Part shown: positions 3,330 through 27,894 of the stretch, piece by piece
Layout: each line of letters opens with the position of its first letter
Numbering within the stretch: the first letter of the stretch is position 1
Source of the DNA: Pseudoalteromonas ruthenica
GTDB lineage: Bacteria; Pseudomonadota; Gammaproteobacteria; Enterobacterales; Alteromonadaceae
Reading direction: 5' to 3'
Length of the DNA: 64,000 bases
NCBI RefSeq assembly: GCF_008808095.1
Contig: NZ_CP023396.1
Coordinates: forward strand, 3,205,380 to 3,269,379
The notes under the pieces: model-generated
What the model was told of the DNA's origin: nothing
Databases searched by the model: none
Seen by the model: the letters and a program-made list of their open reading frames with translations, nothing else
Program-made: the position numbers and the translations under genes

Positions 3330-3773
3330 ATGCTTAAAACCATACCAGTGATACTGGCGCTGGCAGCCAGTGCTTCAATTGAAGCCAAAGAGGTGATTCA
3401 CGCCGATGTGAAAGTGCACTACCTAGTAAGCCAAGACGGGGAGCAGCTTTGGCAGCCACTTGATACCATAAATACCCCCCGCTACCCTATTGAACTAGCA
3501 CGGGATGGAATTGCTGGCTGTGCAGTTGTAGGCTTTGATATTAGCCCTGAAGGCAAGCCTAAAAATATCGAGGTCATTGCTCGCCAGCCACAGCGTCATG
3601 CTCGGGAGCTTCGTAAAGCAACACGCGAGTACATTCGCAATTGGCAATTGCCATCCAGAGAAAGTAGCGAGGATCTGCCTATGGCTTTACGCTTCGATTA
3701 TTGCATTGGCGGTAAAAATGACGAACAAGCCCAGGCTTTATGCGCTAAGGCGATTACCAAACCCTGCGCTTAG
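3330..3773 (+). CDS. small secreted TonB C-terminal-domain protein
   Basis: I chose the ATG at 3330 because AAGGA lies just before it and the product then begins with a signal peptide (MLKTIPVILALAASASIEA). The frame is open further upstream, to 3285. The mature part (147 aa in all) resembles a free TonB C-terminal domain: YPIELARDGIAGCAVVGFDI, then ISPEGKPKNIEVI and a C-terminal pair of strands. It lacks the transmembrane anchor and proline-rich linker of a true TonB, so it is probably periplasmic and cannot itself transmit energy from ExbBD. Four cysteines could form disulfides. Function unknown. Confidence 0.65.
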   Translation: MLKTIPVILALAASASIEAKEVIHADVKVHYLVSQDGEQLWQPLDTINTPRYPIELARDGIAGCAVVGFDISPEGKPKNIEVIARQPQRHARELRKATREYIRNWQLPSRESSEDLPMALRFDYCIGGKNDEQAQALCAKAITKPCA

Positions 3774-19983: not shown

Positions 19984-20772
19984 TTAACTCTGTGGGCACG
20001 CAGGGTGTTCTAAAAGCACTTGCGTGACAATTTGCCCAAACAGCGCTTGCTGCTGCTGGTCTAGCTGAAGCGCCGGGTTATAGGGAATGGCGTCCGCCAA
20101 TTCGCCAGTAATGATTTCATAAAAGGTCATTGCCGTGAGCACCTTCCCTGCATAAGATGCATGATTACCATCTGCGTGATGTAGCTCAACCGTTGGCATA
20201 ACGTCTAATACACGGTTCCAAACCAAGCCTACGGGCGCGACACAGCTAAGCTCTTGTTGACTAATGGATTGATGTAAATTGTACACCCGCTCTGCCTCAG
20301 ATGGGTCACCACGTTGTGGGTGCTCTGGAAATAATATCGGTGTGATGTTGTTTGATTTAGCCTTTGCAATTAAACGCTCAGTTGCGTGCGTTGGATAGTC
20401 GGTTGCGCCGGACTGAGAGTACTTTTGCCCTTGAAATATGGCGTGGCTCCAAGTGCTTTTTTCTAATTGCTCTACGTTTGCAGTAACCGCAGCAATTTCA
20501 TCTAAAAACCGCCCACTAATTGTTACCGTTTCAATCGTCTTATTTGGAAGTTGGTCACTGATCAGTGTTTCAATGATTGAACCTAATTGTGAGCTATGAC
20601 TGTTACCATAAATAACCAACCGATAGTCAGCAACAGCACTATTATCAACGATGTTACCTGTCGGTGTTGGTGTCAGTTGCTTCGGCTCATCATTTTTTGT
20701 GCCAGAGCCACAGGCCGTTAGGTTTAGCCCTATAAAGGCTATGAAGGATATCGCTAAAGGTTTTATCGACAT
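19984..20772 (-). CDS. SGNH-hydrolase-like lipoprotein
   Basis: GGGAGGTGATC before the ATG at 20772 decides the start and gives 262 aa. The N-terminus is a lipoprotein signal with lipobox LTAC (Cys near residue 21). The mature part shows an SGNH/GDSL-like frame: VIYGNSHSSQLG resembles block I with a Ser, and HHADGNHASYAGKVLTA resembles block V with Asp and His. Such enzymes hydrolyse esters, often on glycans. The catalytic assignment is inferred from these two motifs. The gene is AT-richer than its left-hand neighbours. Confidence 0.65.
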   Translation of the reverse strand: MSIKPLAISFIAFIGLNLTACGSGTKNDEPKQLTPTPTGNIVDNSAVADYRLVIYGNSHSSQLGSIIETLISDQLPNKTIETVTISGRFLDEIAAVTANVEQLEKSTWSHAIFQGQKYSQSGATDYPTHATERLIAKAKSNNITPILFPEHPQRGDPSEAERVYNLHQSISQQELSCVAPVGLVWNRVLDVMPTVELHHADGNHASYAGKVLTAMTFYEIITGELADAIPYNPALQLDQQQQALFGQIVTQVLLEHPACPQS

Positions 20773-21056
20773 GATCACCTCCCTGTTACATTGCGCAAAA
20801 GCGCATAGACGATAGATATATGATTCTTTTCGAAAATACACACATTAGTAGGCAACTGCAACAGTAAAAAAGCACAAATAATGTGCAGCGCCAGATAAAA
20901 AAATCAAAGGTTTACTATGATAATTAAGCGCGATAAAAACCCATAATGGCAATAACTTACATTATTTGATATTAATAAATCAGCGACCAAAGTAAACTTA
21001 TCATCATTTTAGTCAGTGGAGGTTTTGTGCGCAGTTTTGAAAGTCACGGAGGTCAT
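20773..21056. other. AT-rich intergenic region
   Basis: This divergent region between the lipoprotein gene and the small membrane protein gene is AT-rich and must hold promoters for both. I see no clear operator, RNA gene or open frame here. Confidence 0.4.
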
Positions 21057-21272
21057 ATGTCTCAACGGGAAAAGGTTACAACATGGTTAATGTTAGTGAT
21101 CTCATTCGCTGTATTTATTGCTGCAACATATATAATTGGTTCGCTTATTGGCAGTCTATTTATCACCGCAACGGTTGAGCTATCAATTCTGCAAATCGGC
21201 ATTATTTGTGGGGGGATCACAGCAATATCAGTATTTATACGTTGCGTGAAAAAAGTTAAAAAATCATGCTGA
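21057..21272 (+). CDS. small two-helix membrane protein
   Basis: The 71-aa product from the ATG at 21057 has two hydrophobic helices (TTWLMLVISFAVFIAATYII and LQIGIICGGITAISVFI) and a lysine-rich tail. GGAGG lies four to nine bases before this ATG. A GTG at 21027, also with GGAGG in front, would add ten residues, so two starts are possible. Function unknown. Confidence 0.5.
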   Translation: MSQREKVTTWLMLVISFAVFIAATYIIGSLIGSLFITATVELSILQIGIICGGITAISVFIRCVKKVKKSC

Positions 21273-21545
21273 ATTAGCTCGCATTTCTAGGTCATAACAG
21301 AGGTAGCTTAGAGCGAGCGACAGACGGTCATCCACCGAAATCACAGTGATACATCCATAATCATTGAGTTTCTCACACAGTCAGGTAAACGACCCAGAGG
21401 GTCGTTTTTGTAGTGCCCACGCTTAGAGCAATGTCGCGTAACTTCAGCGCTGGTAAGTATTTCCTAAATTTGCTATCAATGGTCTAAAGACTAAAACGAG
21501 ACAGGTTGCGGCAGAAAAACGACCCAATCGCTCGATATTAAATTG
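21273..21545. other. intergenic region with terminator, ending at the cassette boundary
   Basis: This stretch has no plausible gene. It holds a strong terminator at 21387-21409 and ends at the G of GTTAGCT (21545), where the first integron cassette begins. I searched the 120 bases before that point for attC arms and found no matching R''/L'' pair, so the left boundary is not an obvious attC site. Confidence 0.5.
21387..21409 (+). terminator. rho-independent terminator
   Basis: AAACGACCC and GGGTCGTTT form a 9-bp stem with a 3-base loop followed by TT. It probably ends transcription from the small membrane protein gene and insulates it from the cassettes downstream. Confidence 0.75.
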
Positions 21546-22128
21546 TTAGCTGTACACCAATCTGAAACAGTAGAGAAATAAATGGAATCAATACTCGGAA
21601 GTGTTATCTGGCGTTTTTTCAAATGGTTGCCACCATTCATTCTGAGAAGAATATTCTCGGCCGAATGGATGATGAAAAACATCTATATTGATATTCGCCC
21701 GAGGCATACTTCTGTAGAAATTTGTCAGCCTGATAACCCGAGGGTAAGCATCTATTTAGACATTAGAAATAATACCCACTTCAATGTAGAGATTGATCGG
21801 ATATTGCTCAGCTTTACATATGGTACAGAGCTGGCTAATCCACAGCATTTTAAACGAGAATACTTAAAGCCCGGCGAGTCCCGAACAATATATTTCACTG
21901 GCAATATAGATCACAGTAGGTTTCAAGGGCTGGCGTTCCAGTACCAAAATAATTTTCGGCACTGCAATTTGGGTATTCTAGCTGAGTGCAATACACGACT
22001 GCATAAATTGTGCATAGAAAGAACTCTCGAGGGTATCAAGCCTGAAATATTAAATGCCCACCTTCTAGAAGCAGCTAACAAGTCAAGCAAAATGGACGCG
22101 CAAACAGCGCGCGCCTCTTCTTGAGGCG
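21546..22128 (+). mobile_element. integron gene cassette 1
   Basis: The cassette begins after the G of GTTAGCT at 21545-21551. Its own attC left arm, AGCTAAC at 22073-22079, is the exact reverse complement of that GTTAGCT. This pairing is expected for a cassette that was once a circle. It holds one gene, in the cassette orientation, whose last codons lie inside the attC site, as is typical. No integrase gene is visible within 21 kb to the left or 39 kb to the right. Confidence 0.85.
21582..22124 (+). CDS. cassette gene 1: membrane-anchored protein of unknown family
   Basis: The 180-aa protein starts 36 bases into cassette 1. Residues about 8-28 form an amphipathic or membrane helix (VIWRFFKWLPPFILRRIF). 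After it comes a predicted beta-rich domain with alternating strands (VSIYLDIRNNTHFNVEIDRI, then LKPGESRTIYFTGNI). I recognise no enzyme motif. The final residues, MDAQTARASS, are encoded within the attC site and are probably not functional. The ribosome site is weak (GAGAAATA). It may act with the helicase of the next cassette, but only their adjacency supports this. Confidence 0.7.
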   Translation: MESILGSVIWRFFKWLPPFILRRIFSAEWMMKNIYIDIRPRHTSVEICQPDNPRVSIYLDIRNNTHFNVEIDRILLSFTYGTELANPQHFKREYLKPGESRTIYFTGNIDHSRFQGLAFQYQNNFRHCNLGILAECNTRLHKLCIERTLEGIKPEILNAHLLEAANKSSKMDAQTARASS

Positions 22129-22134
22129 TTATAC
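22073..22134 (+). repeat. attC recombination site of cassette 1 (62 bp)
   Basis: The site runs from R'' AGCTAAC (22073-22079) to R' GTTATAC (22128-22134). L'' contains TCAAG and L' contains CTTGA, which are complementary. The centre holds CGCGC-AAACA-GCGCG, forming the hairpin end. Recombination cuts between G22128 and T22129. R'' and R' match imperfectly, as expected at a junction between two different cassettes. Confidence 0.85.
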
Positions 22135-25078
22135 GGTTGGTTTAGTAAGTCCGATTTTGACCCAAAGCGGAAGTCGAAATCATAGTTACTCTGACCTCTT
22201 AATTTATAAGGAGTTAAACCATTGATGGCTACCGTATTTAATCAAGTTCAAAACGCAAGCAGTGCTATTTCTCATAATATCGCCAATCTTAGCGATAACA
22301 GAGAGCTTCTGTCTCAGAATGTACTCGCTCAAGTTAGAAATTTGGTTGAGGGGGTAGCCGTATTGTTTTATCGGGACTCATTAGATGCCGAATTTTCCTA
22401 TCCCGAAATTAATCCAGCACTGCAGCATATTAGTGGTAATGGAAGATTAAATTTTGTTTGTCGGTTCCATAAGCTACTTCAAAAGGTAGCTTCTCACTAC
22501 ACTTTTGATGGGGATGCATCAGAAAGATTAATGCTCAAATACTATGAATATTTGTATAGAATTAGAGCCGCTGTTTATAAAAACTACTCTCTCCAGTTAA
22601 TACCCAACCTTGAATCATTTCCTGTCGATTTGGATCCTTCTTTACGCGAATATCATGAAAAAATAACTGCTAGAATTGAATGTTCACGCAGCACTAATTA
22701 TGTTGGAGATAGAAAAGACCGTTACTATGTTCAAAAAAATCGTCCATTTATATTCAATGGCCGGATCTACTATGAGGTAACGTTTTGTCGTGCGGTAAAT
22801 AAGGTAAGCAAGTTTGATCGAGTAATTGCTTTTACTGATCTTGAGATATCGGATAAGTACGCGGTTAATCTAACGCTCAGGCGCGATCAAATTGAAGTAC
22901 TAGGCCAGATTATGCCTATTACTTTAATCCTTGCATGGGAAGTTTCTATTCGTTCCTGTGAGCTAAAAAACTTCGCCCGTTTACTCGGTCACTCGGTAAC
23001 AGGGAGTACGTCTTCACAGGAATATCGATATTTAATGAGCTTTTTGACACAAGGTTATCGAAATTTGAATGACCTGATGTGTATGAGTGATCAAGATTAC
23101 CAACAGGTGAAACTAGGGGCGCTAGTTACAAATCACTCCTCTCAAATATTTGTTTTTTTGGATAGAGCGCGACAGATCATTAAAGCATCTCTCCCAGGCG
23201 GTAACATTCTTCGCTATCTTCTTTTGAGGATGAACAACCAATTACTGAAGTCTCAATATAATCGTGACGGATGTGAGCTACTATCTAATCTAAAATTTTC
23301 CTTTAGTAGTATTCCATTTGATAAGATGCCTTTTTGTACATCTCTCCCTAAGCATAATCCGAGGTTTTGGGATCTCTCTGATTGTATCGATATGGTGGGG
23401 CGCCAACATGAACTTCTGGCTAGACGTGTTAGAAATAACGTTGAAAGACATGGGGTTTTGTATACCCCAATCGGAGATTTAAGCGAATTTGGAGATGTTG
23501 AGGCATTAATAAACGACTTTAATAATCGAATTTACAAAACACACAAAGAAATTCGAAGTTTAGTTTCTGATAAAGGACACGTGTTTATAAATGGCTACGA
23601 AGAAGATACTTTCAGTATTATTGAAAGGTTAAAAACATTTTCATCTTCTGGGATATCAGGATATACCCAAGCAGTAACACGCTGGATAGATGAGTCAGCT
23701 CACAGTATCGATGATACCGTGAAGCATCAGGCTTTAACTCAATTATTTAGCGATTCAAAGGTTGCTATTATATACGGCGCGGCAGGAACAGGTAAATCCA
23801 CAATGGTTGACCATATTGCTCACTACTTTAGCGACAAGAGAAAGCTATTTTTGGCTCATACGAACCCTGCTAAAGATAACTTAATGCGTAAGGTGACGGC
23901 GCAGAATTCTGAGTTTCGAACCGTAAGTAGTGAAATTCATAGTGGTTGTAACCCTTTCTTGCCTGACTATGACCTTCTTGTGATTGATGAGTGCAGTACC
24001 GTTAGTAATTCTGATTTTTTGAAGGTATTAGAGAAGAACACCGCAAAATTGATAGTTCTTGTTGGTGATGTGTATCAAATTGAGTCAATACAGTTTGGTA
24101 ATTGGTTCGAAGTGATTCGTTCTTTTATTCCTAGTTCCTCAGTCTTTGAATTAACAACGCCATTTAGAACACAGAATCATTCGCTATTAGATTTCTGGAA
24201 TAAAGTTCGAAATATCGATGATGACTTAACTGAAGTTATGGTTCGGCATGGTTATTCGTCGATATTGGACTCGAGTATCTTCCAGTCTCAAGGTAATGAC
24301 GAAATTATACTGTGTTTAAATTACGATGGTTTGTACGGGATTAATAACATTAATAGATTTCTTCAAAGTAGTAACCCTAATCCGGCGATAAACTGGAGTG
24401 ATTCGACTTACAAAGTAGGAGATCCTGTTCTCTTTTATGAATCTGAACGATTTAAACCTGTTATATACAATAACCTAAAAGGCCGAATAATTAGAATCGA
24501 ACAGTTTGTCGGCTATATTCAATTTGATATTGAGCTAGATCGTCCGTTGACTGAACTTGACGTTGCAGGGAATGAATTAGAGTGGGTAGAAGGTTCGACT
24601 GTTAGGTTCCAAGTTTTTGAAGTAAAGAATAGTGATGACGACGATGACTCATTAAATATTGCGATTCCGTTTCAAGTTGCCTACGCGGTATCTATTCATA
24701 AAGCGCAAGGGCTTGAATACGATTCCGTCAAAGTGGTCATAACAGATGCTAACGAAGATGACATTTCTCATAGTATTTTTTATACCGCAATTACAAGGGC
24801 TAGGGAAAATTTAAAGATTTTTTGGACACCGGAGACTCAGCAAAAAGTTATTCAGCGTCTGCAACGAATACCTAGAAATAAGGATGTTGCTTTGATATCA
24901 CGTCGGCGAGGTCTTACATCTGTTCTGATTTAATATGATTATTAGAACCGTGGATCAGAGCAACTTGATCTAAACGTCCGCTTATAGAATAGCGAAGTTG
25001 ATGCAGGTAACGTATAACAAGCGCAAGCAGTCGGAAAAAGTGCTCGCTTACGCTCTCAATTCTCCGCTGTTGCGGGCG
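22129..25078 (+). mobile_element. integron gene cassette 2 (unusually long, about 2.95 kb)
   Basis: The cassette begins at T22129 in GTTATAC. The left arm of its attC, GTATAAC at 25012-25018, is the exact reverse complement of that core, so both boundaries are confirmed by sequence. It carries one gene, the 902-aa helicase. Typical cassettes are a few hundred bases to about 1.5 kb, so this one is large. Its coding sequence is clearly AT-richer than glmS next to it. Confidence 0.87.
22225..24933 (+). CDS. cassette gene 2: SF1 (RecD/Dda/Pif1-like) helicase with unknown N-terminal region
   Basis: The 902-aa protein is cytoplasmic. Counting from an in-frame TTG at 22222 as residue 1, the C-terminal helicase core has Walker A GAAGTGKST (519-527, Lys 525), Walker B VIDE (Asp 589, Glu 590), motif III GDVYQ (Gln 619), motif IV PFRTQN (Arg 649), motif V SIHKAQG (824-830) and motif VI TAITRAR (855-861). 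This order fits SF1B helicases with a UvrD_C_2-type end. Residues 1 to about 490 match no family I know and contain no visible nuclease motif. AAGGAG at 22208-22213 serves either the TTG at 22222 or the ATG at 22225. It probably translocates on DNA. A phage-defence role is a hypothesis. Confidence 0.85.
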   Translation: MATVFNQVQNASSAISHNIANLSDNRELLSQNVLAQVRNLVEGVAVLFYRDSLDAEFSYPEINPALQHISGNGRLNFVCRFHKLLQKVASHYTFDGDASERLMLKYYEYLYRIRAAVYKNYSLQLIPNLESFPVDLDPSLREYHEKITARIECSRSTNYVGDRKDRYYVQKNRPFIFNGRIYYEVTFCRAVNKVSKFDRVIAFTDLEISDKYAVNLTLRRDQIEVLGQIMPITLILAWEVSIRSCELKNFARLLGHSVTGSTSSQEYRYLMSFLTQGYRNLNDLMCMSDQDYQQVKLGALVTNHSSQIFVFLDRARQIIKASLPGGNILRYLLLRMNNQLLKSQYNRDGCELLSNLKFSFSSIPFDKMPFCTSLPKHNPRFWDLSDCIDMVGRQHELLARRVRNNVERHGVLYTPIGDLSEFGDVEALINDFNNRIYKTHKEIRSLVSDKGHVFINGYEEDTFSIIERLKTFSSSGISGYTQAVTRWIDESAHSIDDTVKHQALTQLFSDSKVAIIYGAAGTGKSTMVDHIAHYFSDKRKLFLAHTNPAKDNLMRKVTAQNSEFRTVSSEIHSGCNPFLPDYDLLVIDECSTVSNSDFLKVLEKNTAKLIVLVGDVYQIESIQFGNWFEVIRSFIPSSSVFELTTPFRTQNHSLLDFWNKVRNIDDDLTEVMVRHGYSSILDSSIFQSQGNDEIILCLNYDGLYGINNINRFLQSSNPNPAINWSDSTYKVGDPVLFYESERFKPVIYNNLKGRIIRIEQFVGYIQFDIELDRPLTELDVAGNELEWVEGSTVRFQVFEVKNSDDDDDSLNIAIPFQVAYAVSIHKAQGLEYDSVKVVITDANEDDISHSIFYTAITRARENLKIFWTPETQQKVIQRLQRIPRNKDVALISRRRGLTSVLI

Positions 25079-25084
25079 TTAGAC
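25012..25084 (+). repeat. attC recombination site of cassette 2 (73 bp)
   Basis: R'' is GTATAAC (25012-25018) and R' is GTTAGAC (25078-25084). L'' GCGCAAGCAG and L' CTGTTGCGGGC pair with one or two unpaired bases, the usual strand-choice signal of attC. The centre, TCGGAAAAAG to TTCTCCG, completes the hairpin. Cleavage is between G25078 and T25079. This is a near-textbook attC. Confidence 0.88.
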
Positions 25085-25192
25085 CAGCATCTGCTTTCTC
25101 ATAACATAAAGCTTGGGTGACTAATGGTTGAATGGCGGTTAATGGCTTTGCGCTGACCGTCGGGCCAGCTACTAATAAACGTTCGGTCTAAC
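25079..25192. mobile_element. probable remnant of a third cassette, no gene
   Basis: GTTAGACC at 25078-25085 has an exact 8-base reverse complement, GGTCTAAC, at 25185-25192. This is the relation expected between a cassette start and the R'' arm of its own attC. No ORF lies between, and no L'/R' end follows before the glmS terminator. It may be a truncated cassette whose attC was lost, or the original junction with the host chromosome. Confidence in the repeat is high; the interpretation is uncertain. Confidence 0.4.
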
Positions 25193-25211
25193 ACTTTATG
25201 CTATTGCAACA

Positions 25212-25235
25212 AAAAAGGCGCTTTCGCGCCTTTTT
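25212..25235 (-). terminator. glmS terminator
   Basis: AAAAAGGCGC, TTTC and GCGCCTTTTT form a perfect stem with a 4-base loop, beginning 11 bases after the glmS stop. The minus-strand copy ends in T residues. It separates glmS from the cassettes. Confidence 0.9.
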
Positions 25236-25245
25236 CAATTCCTTC

Positions 25246-25281
25246 TTATTCCACCGTTACCGATTTGGCTAGGTTTCGGGG
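25246..25281 (-). other. attTn7-type target sequence in the glmS 3' end
   Basis: The last codons of glmS encode the conserved [10 protein letters not shown] segment that TnsD recognises in Tn7-bearing bacteria. Tn7 inserts about 25 bases past the stop. No Tn7-type end or tns gene is visible here. The integron cassettes lie just beyond the terminator instead. Confidence 0.5.
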
Positions 25282-27066
25282 TTGGTCAACGTCGGTGCCT
25301 TTAATAACCGCAACATAGTACGAAAGCAATTGCAGTGGGATGGTATAAACCACTGGGGCAATGATGTTTTCCACATGGTTTACATTGATTACGCGCATGG
25401 TCTCGTCCGATGCAAAGTGTGAGTCCTTATCGGCAAACACGTAAATAATACCGCCACGGGCACGCACTTCCTCTACATTCGATTTCAGCTTTTCGAGCAA
25501 CTCGTTATTCGGTGCCACGACGATGATCGGCATATCGGCGTCAATCAAGGCTAATGGGCCATGTTTGAGCTCACCCGCAGCATAGGCTTCGGCGTGAATG
25601 TAAGAGATCTCTTTGAGTTTCAATGCCCCTTCCATAGCAATAGGGTACTGCGAGCCACGGCCTAGGAATAACGAGTGGTGTTTATCGGCGAACTCTTCCG
25701 CTAACTCCTCAATGCCCTCGGCCAGGGTCAAGGCTTCTTCAAGCTTGTTTGGCAGGGTCTTAATCGCACTTACAATAGCACGTTGATTAAGGCCTTTTTC
25801 TTGGGCGATGGACGCCGTTAGCATCAATAAGCCAACCAGTTGTGTGGTAAAAGCTTTTGTTGAAGCCACGCCAATTTCAGCCCCTGCTTTGGTCATAAAG
25901 GCTAAATCAGACTCGCGTACCAGCGATGAGCCCGGTACGTTACAAATGGTCATCGACGCCATGTACCCCTGCTCTTTAGCCAAACGCAAGGCAGCCAAGG
26001 TATCAGCCGTTTCACCCGATTGGGAAATCGTTACTAATAGGCTATTTTCGTGCACGAACGATTCGCGATAGCGGAATTCTGAGGCAATTTCGACATTACA
26101 GCTGACGCCGGCAAACTGCTCTAGCCAGTAACGCGCGACCATTCCCGAATGATACGAGGTACCACAGGCGATAATTTGCACGTGTTTTACGTCTTTAAAA
26201 ATTTGCGTTGCGCCCTCACCAAAGGCATCTACACTGACGCGCTCATCGTGTAAACGACTATCCAAGGTATTACGCACTGCCAATGGCTGCTCGTAAATTT
26301 CCTTCAGCATATAATGGCGGTAGTCGCCCTTGCCAGAGGCGTCTTGGGTAATGTTAGATTCCACCACTTCACGCTCAACACTGTGGCCGTTGCTATCGAA
26401 TATTTCCACGCTATCGCGGGTAATACGAGCCACATCGCCCTCTTCTAGGAAGATAAAGCTGCGAGTCACAGGCAATAGTGCAAGCTGATCAGAGGCAATA
26501 AAGTTCTCGCCGAGTCCTAAGCCGATAACCAGCGGGCTTCCTGAGCGCGCAACAATCACTTCATTATCGTTGGCTTTATCAAATACCACCGTGCCGTAGG
26601 CACCTTCTAGTTGTTTCACCGCCGCTTGTACGGCACTGAGCAAGGAGTTGTGCTGTTGGCGCAATTGATGGATAAGGTGCACCATAACTTCGGTATCTGT
26701 TTGCGATACAAACTCGTAGCCATCGCCTTGCAACGCTTCGCGCAAACTGGCATGGTTTTCGATAATGCCGTTATGAACCAATGCTAATTCACTGTTAGAG
26801 ACATGCGGGTGGGCATTGGCTTCGGTAACGCCACCATGAGTAGCCCAGCGAGTGTGGGCAATGCCCGTTGTGCCAGAAACATTGGCTTCATTGAGCGCAC
26901 TTTCCAACGCCGCCACCTTACCTACAGCTTTAACGCAATTTAAGGTGCTTTGTTGCGATAGCGCTACGCCTGCTGAGTCGTAGCCACGGTATTCAAGGCG
27001 CTTAAGGCCTTCAATTAAAATTCGGTTCACAGGGCGTTCGGCAACAGCCCCTACTATTCCACACAT
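25246..27066 (-). CDS. glmS: glutamine-fructose-6-phosphate aminotransferase
   Basis: The 606-aa protein is full length. The N-terminus MCGIVGAV supplies the catalytic Cys after Met removal, and the glutaminase domain continues with AHTRWATHG and HNGIIENH. Two SIS isomerase domains follow (CGTSYHSGM near residue 300 and [20 protein letters not shown] near 455). The C-terminus is [11 protein letters not shown]. GlmS makes glucosamine-6-phosphate, the first step to UDP-GlcNAc; GlmU encoded at 44868 performs the last steps. The 3' end is the conserved attTn7 target in other bacteria. Confidence 0.97.
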
Positions 27067-27129
27067 AGATTCTCCATTTGCACAGTATGTGTTGTTAAAA
27101 AGCCCGATGTTGTCGGTCGGGTTATGTGT

Positions 27130-27894
27130 TTATACCTTGGCACAAATTAAATGTACGCCATGCGCGCTGATCTCTTGGCGCAAGTCTGCAGCCAAGGTGT
27201 TGTCGGTGATCAGAGTGCTGACCTTGTGCCAAGGCAGTTCTAAATTTGGGATACGGCGGCCTATCTTGTCAGACTCCACCATCACCACCACTTCACGGGC
27301 CGCTTCAGCCATCACTTGGCTTAGGCCGATAAGTTCGTTGAAAGTAGTGGTTCCACGGGAAACATCGATACCATCAGCACCGATAAATAAGGTATCGAAA
27401 TCATATGAGCGCAATACCTGCTCTGCTACTTGCCCTTGAAAAGACTCTGAATGTGGGTCCCAGGTACCACCGGTCATCAATAAGGTCGGCTCGTTCTCTA
27501 ACGCCAGCAAGCGATTAGCAACATTAATGGCATTGGTCATCACCACTAGGCCTCGTTTGCTCGCCAGTTCAGGGATCAAGGCGGCGGTGGTGCGCCCGCT
27601 ATCGATGATAATGCGGTGATGATCTTTAATAAGCTGAGCGGCTGCCTTGGCAATGGCGCGTTTACGGGCTGAGTCTTGCGGCTCTTCACTGGCAACGATT
27701 TCATTGGGTAAGGCAATCGCGCCACCGTATCGGCGTAGCAAGAGGCCGTTTTTTTCAAGTGTTGCTAAGTCCTTTCGAATCGTAACTTCTGATGTTTGCA
27801 GCTGCTCCGCTAACGCCTCTACTGAGACTTCACCCATTTCATTAACCTGGCTAAGAATACTATGGCGGCGTTGCTGGGTATTGCGCTTGGTCAT
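27130..27894 (-). CDS. DeoR-family transcriptional regulator
   Basis: The 254-aa protein has a DeoR winged helix (RRHSILSQVNEMGEVSVEAL, then LQTSEVTIRKDLATLEKNG) and a C-terminal sugar-phosphate-sensing domain with DSGRTTAALIPEL and FIGADGID. It lies 63 bases upstream of glmS on the same strand, an arrangement common in marine gammaproteobacteria. It probably controls amino-sugar synthesis in response to a sugar phosphate. Confidence 0.9.
   Translation of the reverse strand: MTKRNTQQRRHSILSQVNEMGEVSVEALAEQLQTSEVTIRKDLATLEKNGLLLRRYGGAIALPNEIVASEEPQDSARKRAIAKAAAQLIKDHHRIIIDSGRTTAALIPELASKRGLVVMTNAINVANRLLALENEPTLLMTGGTWDPHSESFQGQVAEQVLRSYDFDTLFIGADGIDVSRGTTTFNELIGLSQVMAEAAREVVVMVESDKIGRRIPNLELPWHKVSTLITDNTLAADLRQEISAHGVHLICAKV

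Follow-up and report, generated by a model that had tools for sequence, protein, structure and literature searches.

Clusters of attC sites lacking integron-integrases (CALINs) are defined by attC alone, and IntegronFinder has no attI detection outside class 1 (PMC9024848), so that an attI anchoring such a cluster is invisible to this standard tool. The usual explanations of integrase-less attC clusters are the degradation of integrons (PMC9024848) and insertion at attG sites (PMC12444791, PMC11023631); these statements, and those on the same literature below, refer to the parts of the papers available to us. In Alteromonas, integrase-less arrays show fewer new cassettes than arrays beside the integrase (PMC4119200), and in Xanthomonas the positions of off-site CALINs were contrasted by the authors with the broad spread of attG insertions (PMC12444791). 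Here we describe two integron cassettes downstream of glmS in a 64,000-nucleotide stretch of Pseudoalteromonas ruthenica DNA (contig NZ_CP023396.1, positions 3,205,380 to 3,269,379, forward strand), which is referred to as the window. This locus is very probably an integron array split from its integrase, in which a dispersed attI copy of about 240 bp, one of a network of attI platforms, received both cassettes by attI x attC recombination. Most likely, this recombination was carried out by the IntI whose gene lies 2.46 Mb away, or by one of its relatives.

The cassettes were delineated with R1, an attC covariance model trained on 21 sites, none of them from the window. Many of the training sites come from arrays behind the attI type found in the window (f1) in the same set of genomes, and R1 is tuned to Pseudoalteromonas. 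It replaced attC calling by simple pairing rules, which yielded many false sites and missed true ones. Over both strands of the 64 kb, at E-values up to 5, R1 gave exactly two matches, and these coincide with the two attC sites predicted in a preliminary description made from the DNA sequence alone (Table 1). Judged by R1 scores, both sites possess paired R''/R' and L''/L' arms; a search of the window against Rfam returned no match. As the same description had noted, each cassette starts with the reverse complement of its own R'' arm: GTTAGCT (21545-21551) corresponds to AGCTAAC, and GTTATAC (22128-22134) to GTATAAC, the R'' partners being the first bases of the respective attC sites. The third 7-mer, GTTAGAC, lies at 25078-25084. 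Following the standard integron rule, we take the crossover in the GTTAGCT junction to lie between the G and the TT. The 5' boundary of cassette 2 has independent support from a Marinobacterium marinum contig (L065; loci, genomes and contigs are numbered L, G and C), in which this cassette recurs, 94.2% identical at the DNA level across 2820 bases. The homologous stretch begins two bases ahead of GTTATAC, behind another attC. The presence of the cassette there points to transfer between distant genera. Thus, the R1 matches, the exact 7-mers and the L065 boundary confirm the two integrated cassettes, whereas the earlier interpretation as a whole is partly supported.

Two further observations concern the edges of this cassette. 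In L065, similarity to it ends just past the stop codon of its helicase gene (positions 3612-3706) and is followed by other DNA, possibly the start of a transposase gene. In the window, GTTAGACC lies past the second attC (25078-25195), with an inverted partner, GGTCTAAC, about 110 bases on, just ahead of the inverted repeat downstream of glmS; R1 gave no match at this pair.

Table 1. Positions of the integron elements, cassette genes and neighbouring gene in the window.
Feature	Position	Strand	Remarks
Dispersed attI element, copy W	21311..21548	+	left end approximate (GAGCGA...), right end conserved GTTA; full unit about 240 bp
Hairpin repeat in copy W	21387-21407	+	inverted repeat, AAACGACCC AGA GGGTCGTTT
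Invariant attI core GCAGAAAAACGACCCAATCGCTCGATATTAAATTGTTA	21511..21548	+	38 bases, 100% identical in the six copies of the genome
attI/cassette 1 junction GTTAGCT	21545..21551	+	complements the R'' arm of the first attC, 7/7
Cassette 1	21546..22128	+	583 bp
Open reading frame in cassette 1, 180 amino acids	21582..22124	+	end overlaps the attC of cassette 1; no profile match
attC of cassette 1	22073..22134	+	R1 match 34.0 bits, E 4e-6
Cassette 2	22129..25078	+	2950 bp; start also seen in Marinobacterium marinum L065
Helicase of superfamily-1 type, PDC-S53, 903 amino acids	22222..24933	+	PADLOC PDLC05035; Pfam AAA_30, Viral_helicase1, UvrD_C_2
attC of cassette 2	25012..25084	+	R1 match 37.8 bits, E 4.2e-7
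glmS	25246..27066	-	housekeeping neighbour outside the element

Overlooked by the preliminary description, the roughly 190-240 bases directly ahead of cassette 1 are an attI copy, which we call copy W. Over 128 bases, it shares 94% identity with the attI that adjoins the one intact intI in the genome (4.12 Mb in two contigs), which lies 2.46 Mb away on the same chromosome (G000:C1:770481-771425). This gene encodes 344 amino acids without stops, and its product is the sole match above the cut-off of the integron integrase family TIGR02249 (445.9 bits against a cut-off of 265). A search of the 2.2 kb preceding cassette 1 revealed no trace of intI; the reported absence of an integrase beside the cassettes therefore stands, and intI does not adjoin the attI as in a complete integron. 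With two attC sites and no neighbouring integrase, the locus reaches the CALIN minimum of at least two such sites, as had been proposed, but it is not a bare attC cluster, since it starts at an attI copy.

The genome contains six f1 copies: copy W, one at 771 kb on contig C1 beside the intact intI, three at 1077, 1830 and 2785 kb on the same contig, and one at 119 kb on C2. Five of the six have no integrase nearby. All share the final 38 bases, directly after which their sequences diverge, and the preceding 152 alignment columns average 83% identity against 100% for this core. Copy W contains a degenerate LexA-like box, as do copies at unrelated places, and the intI-linked copies have a better one at that position. 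By strict consensus, neither a promoter nor an intrinsic terminator was found at 21280-21620. In the attI alignment, which comprised these six copies and 27 full-length ones, two of the 27 being intI-linked, the left half of the unit (GAGCGA...CATCC...) is common to copies at unrelated places and lacking from intI-linked copies. It adjoins attI in six genomes searched; the exceptions are two weak matches, both beside tails of a further attI type (f3), and a short outer repeat at four further places, two of which lie about 170 bases upstream of units of another type (f2). There are hints that different attI types may have spread with a common left part.

Other features of the unit were seen in passing. 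The outer left-edge repeat occurs at G000:C2:62135 and G011:C11:73103, near the f2 copies G000:C2:61769-61963 and G011:C11:72732-72926. Shortened units in L172, L198 (position 12319) and L201 have the hairpin repeat AAACGACCCAAT fused straight to the core repeat, the expected product of recombination between both direct repeats. Among the matches listed, chromosomal repeat families of about 80-180 bases crowd the DNA just upstream of f1 units in several species (for example, L169, L173, L166 and L176).

Across the genus, f1 gave at least 147 matches in 52 of 108 Pseudoalteromonas genomes, the weakest being 26-36 bases long, so that not all may be attI. Copy numbers here and below are lower bounds, as the best eight (f1), seven (f2 and f3) or three (order-wide) candidates were scored per genome. 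An intI match at E<=1e-60 lies within 2 kb of 17 f1 matches, and all 17 are divergent from it; at least 130 matches in 51 genomes have no intI that near. This is the canonical layout, and the repeat is therefore identified as attI. Ten of the 17 adjoining intI genes are complete without stops and seven are partial or interrupted by stops; in all 13 intI-adjacent loci fetched, the attI ends in TCGATATTAAATTGTT. Matches of at least 100 bases number 33 in 13 genomes, 30 of them without intI nearby, including L185, which has intI pieces at a contig end. Both matches to the attI sequence in plasmid records are in Pseudoalteromonas.

From the 130 integrase-less f1 matches, we chose 53 copies in 26 genomes, giving priority to full-length ones, followed by those at the top of the list and by some from genomes that contain an intI-linked attI; L185 was left out, L187 was counted as intI-linked, and four matches to the hairpin repeat only were dropped. 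An attC on the same strand starts within 3.5 kb downstream of 44 of the 53 copies. By comparison, one of the 51 copies with enough sequence has an attC within 2 kb upstream, and that attC belongs to a second, tandem attI (L198). Cassettes are attached exactly at the crossover: the 7-mer there matches the R'' arm of the first attC at 7/7 positions in 33 of the 44 and at 6/7 or more in 41. When the starts were permuted among loci 5000 times, exact matches averaged 4.1 and never exceeded 10. In several genomes, DNA of two other kinds is attached to attI precisely at GTT, namely GTTG followed by AACTAAGCCGCTACGCGGAGAT and GTTC followed by TGATGGAATTGGAAA (L238 and L239 in G071 and L259 in G095; L188 and L189 in G120 and L240 in G089). 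They look like mobile elements targeting attI; L259 has, starting about 90 bases downstream, a reading frame with 27% identity to IntI.

Orthologous platforms in the related species G011, G100 and G101 allow the two sides of the crossover to be compared. In five integrase-less f1 pairs (L164/L169, L166/L176, L172/L173, L165/L177 and L168/L179), upstream pieces are 90-97% identical, and in four of them the identity extends to within two bases of the crossover; in L172/L173, the aligned piece stops 14 and 144 bases short, as the unit in L172 is shortened. All five pairs agree over the last 30 bases of attI, except for one base in L177. Past the crossover, the two members of each pair carry different cassettes: in four pairs nothing matches until the downstream flank, and L172/L173 show one attC-like and one short flank match, after which the chromosomal flank is homologous again in all five (87-97%). 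In a sixth pair, L171/L178, the agreement likewise extends to the crossover, and the sequence then stops at a contig end.

Different platforms also carry near-identical cassettes. The cassette of L173 (f1, G100) is 99.5% identical to that of L207 (f2, P. ruthenica), L231 (beside intact intI, G098) to L246 (beside intI remnants, G121) 97.1%, L180 (integrase-less, G098) to L235 (beside broken intI, G095) 99.8%, and L237 (beside broken intI) to L245 (integrase-less), both in G121, 96.5%; L211 (f3, P. ruthenica) and L214 (f1, intact intI, G101) share 93.2% over the shorter body. Thus, cassettes have moved between attI types and between platforms that have an integrase and platforms that do not.

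The f3 type behaves in the same way, with no f3 site in the training of R1. At least 101 f3 matches, some of them pieces of one copy, were found in 44 of the 108 genomes; ten lie within 2 kb of an intI match, all ten divergent (for example, L212, L213 and L225 in other species), and 91 do not. Of 74 matches of at least 100 bases, ten are intI-adjacent and 64 are not. We examined 20 of the 22 best-scoring f3 orphans outside the P. ruthenica genome (G096:C34 and G064:C44:114546 were skipped) and found a same-strand attC downstream of 19, within 3.5 kb for 18, and an opposite-strand one for none. The start matches the R'' arm exactly in 16 of the 19, against a mean of 2.1 and a maximum of 9 in 2000 permutations. 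The f2 type is present in 10 of the 108 genomes, and none was seen beside an intI when positions were compared by eye; f2 is therefore called attI-like only.

A cassette pair without integrase, described as unusual in the preliminary account, is not unusual in the P. ruthenica genome itself, where attC clusters occupy about 16 places. (In one search for attC candidates, 150 of 1349 were scored; its output does not include the window pair.) Fourteen clusters are tied to one of the three attI-type sequences: one lies at the intact intI, five at integrase-less f1 copies, three at f3, four at f2, and for one (L209) the only link is an f2 copy some 4.6 kb upstream. The two remaining clusters have no clear attI, L206 showing a degenerate attI-like end and L210 none. 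Of the f3 clusters, one is beside intI remnants, and the start match failed for L211. Most integrase-less attC clusters of this genome are thus attI-anchored. Fragments resembling intI and containing stops occur at G000:C1:1084433-1084823, 1151130 and 1980497; the first adjoins an f3 attI and a four-attC array.

In the wider order, 4 of 295 genomes had attI matches at E<=1e-6, representing 3 of 99 genera with Pseudoalteromonas included. Within the family, at least three genera contain dispersed copies of the attI core. There are at least three copies in G290, on three contigs, at least three in G331 and one in G213; each of these genomes has an intI above the cut-off elsewhere, and G213 an intI fragment about 3 kb from its copy. 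A same-strand attC follows in five of the seven loci (L268, weakly, L270, L271, L272 and L273); in L274 the attC is upstream instead, and L269 has none.

We propose that IntI made at the intI-linked locus would bind the dispersed attI copies like its own, because their recombination end is identical, and that bound IntI would insert circular cassettes there. IntI would thus act in trans, and would probably still be active. Integrase-less attI copies may have two origins, loss of intI in place and the copying around the genome of a separate, probably older unit that already had no integrase.

The first of these origins, if general, amounts to the best-surviving alternative: the array would be a degraded integron whose cassettes were inserted by a local integrase before its gene was deleted. 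Several observations that weigh against our reading speak for this one. Pieces of intI are kept at 5 of the 53 integrase-less f1 copies (L186, L241, L242, L246 and L247) and in the few hundred upstream bases seen for 4 of the 20 f3 copies; L168 and L179 are orthologous to L214 in G101, where intI is intact; and, on a weak resemblance, the orphan unit may begin at its far left with a shortened intI start. On the other hand, the 1.5-2.2 kb searched upstream of the remaining 48 f1 copies contains no trace of intI, and the left half shared by orphans at unrelated places and absent from intI-linked attI probably reflects descent from a unit that was already integrase-less. The differing cassettes of orthologous platforms suggest exchange after the loss of intI, or else loss after exchange in each lineage. 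We consider degradation unlikely as the explanation of the window locus.

The attI-cassette segment might instead have been brought to glmS as a block, either through homologous recombination or on a Tn7-like element that used attTn7. The 3' ends of glmS are known Tn7 targets, and the preliminary description saw the glmS/attTn7 hotspot as the setting of cassette capture. The array does adjoin glmS, and in L050 (G019) and L057 (G022) the 3' end of glmS is found again about 1.3-1.6 kb downstream of the gene, the kind of trace that site-specific islands at glmS leave. However, among the five proteins scanned with Pfam around the array (19984-27894) there is no transposition protein, hence no Tns genes next to glmS as a Tn7-like element would have, and the other four integrase-less f1 copies of the genome are located away from glmS. 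The hotspot is thus not shown to be the cause, and the tie between the array and attTn7 is one of position, with nothing else linking them. We regard block transfer as quite improbable. Insertion of the cassettes at ordinary attG sites without any attI, an event described by Loot et al. 2024 (as cited in PMC11023631 and PMC12444791) and conceivable for the clusters L206, L210 and L209, is hardly credible here, as cassette 1 is preceded by a long attI copy whose 38-base core is invariant, and not by a short triplet.

Further observations also count against an array filled in trans at the window. Stretches of 4.6-14.9 kb from 24 relatives of the same genus match nothing in the window from 18.3 kb to the end of glmS, and G100 and G101 share with it only glmS and DNA more than 6 kb from glmS; with no relative having a comparable flank, exchange at the window is argued from other loci. 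No attC was detected within 3.5 kb of 9 of the 53 f1 copies, one of which (L195) has less than 2.5 kb of sequence downstream, and the f3 copy L264 has an attC upstream as well. An intI match at E<=1e-60 is missing from 12 of the 51 genomes with integrase-less copies, where the platforms would be frozen or would have received their cassettes at an earlier time. The search for a pristine site empty of the whole attI unit had no success, the closest candidates (L216, L217, L218 and L219) being replaced or rearranged, and the left boundary of the unit consequently rests mainly on comparison between loci.

The product of cassette 1 has no match in Pfam, NCBIfam or PADLOC; its relatives among the matches listed comprise 31 proteins, itself included, of which the three named by their source are each a 'hypothetical protein'. 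The helicase of cassette 2 is a full-length member of the PADLOC candidate defence family PDC-S53, as predicted by the profile match (1332.5 bits, E 0; residues 2-899 against profile positions 1-897 of 900). Its TTG start at 22222 is conserved in L065 and the next ATG is not. We know of no activity for PDC-S53, and the name was not found in the open-access literature searched. Only one of 24 loci with relatives of this helicase, L065, has an attC match, although several loci are short and R1 is tuned to the genus; there is thus no sign that PDC-S53 is usually a cassette. The first cassette behind the intact intI encodes a PifA-like protein. Together with the helicase as a candidate anti-phage protein, this suggests that the platforms may be mounting points for phage defence.

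As the same attI unit occupies up to seven places per genome, the integron can be regarded as a network of many platforms and one or few integrases. A wider proposal, on which we are evenly divided, is that the attI of about 240 bp is a dispersed, self-standing and somehow mobilised repeat, that one probably SOS-controlled integrase per genome would load and swap cassettes at all platforms in trans, and that CALINs would be largely working arrays and not ruins. If one integrase does serve many platforms, the integron would be a genome-wide network instead of one array with one first position, and many cassettes could hold the first, best expressed position simultaneously. This would bear on the number of expressible cassettes, on the origin and persistence of CALINs and on the spread of cassettes. 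Arrays that are anchored on attI and have no integrase would escape the standard search, and our search of the open-access literature, outside which subscription papers and preprints fell, yielded no account of attI copies that are dispersed or lack an integrase.

All parts of the system belong to the integron family. Sedentary chromosomal integrons are alike in attI, attC type and an integron-family integrase (TIGR02249), but have one attI together with intI, whereas here many attI copies are dispersed, most of them without intI. CALINs likewise consist of attC cassettes without a nearby integrase; the array described here is anchored on a real attI copy. The three-region integron of Alteromonas, also a marine genus, includes two integrase-less attC regions that are expressed; no attI was reported there in the available parts of that paper, which call the finding unexpected (PMC4119200), in contrast to the up to seven attI copies per genome in our set. 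The off-site CALINs of Xanthomonas are similarly integrase-less and are present in about half of the genomes, at positions that are relatively conserved, but the accessible text does not mention an attI anchor (PMC12444791). Delta-attI-type cassettes of mobile integrons, as far as the available sections describe them, also place attI sequence away from its usual position, yet there the attI pieces serve as cassette recombination sites (PMC12901181), whereas here whole attI units head separate arrays. Thus, the feature that sets this system apart from its described relatives is the presence of many attI copies per integrase.

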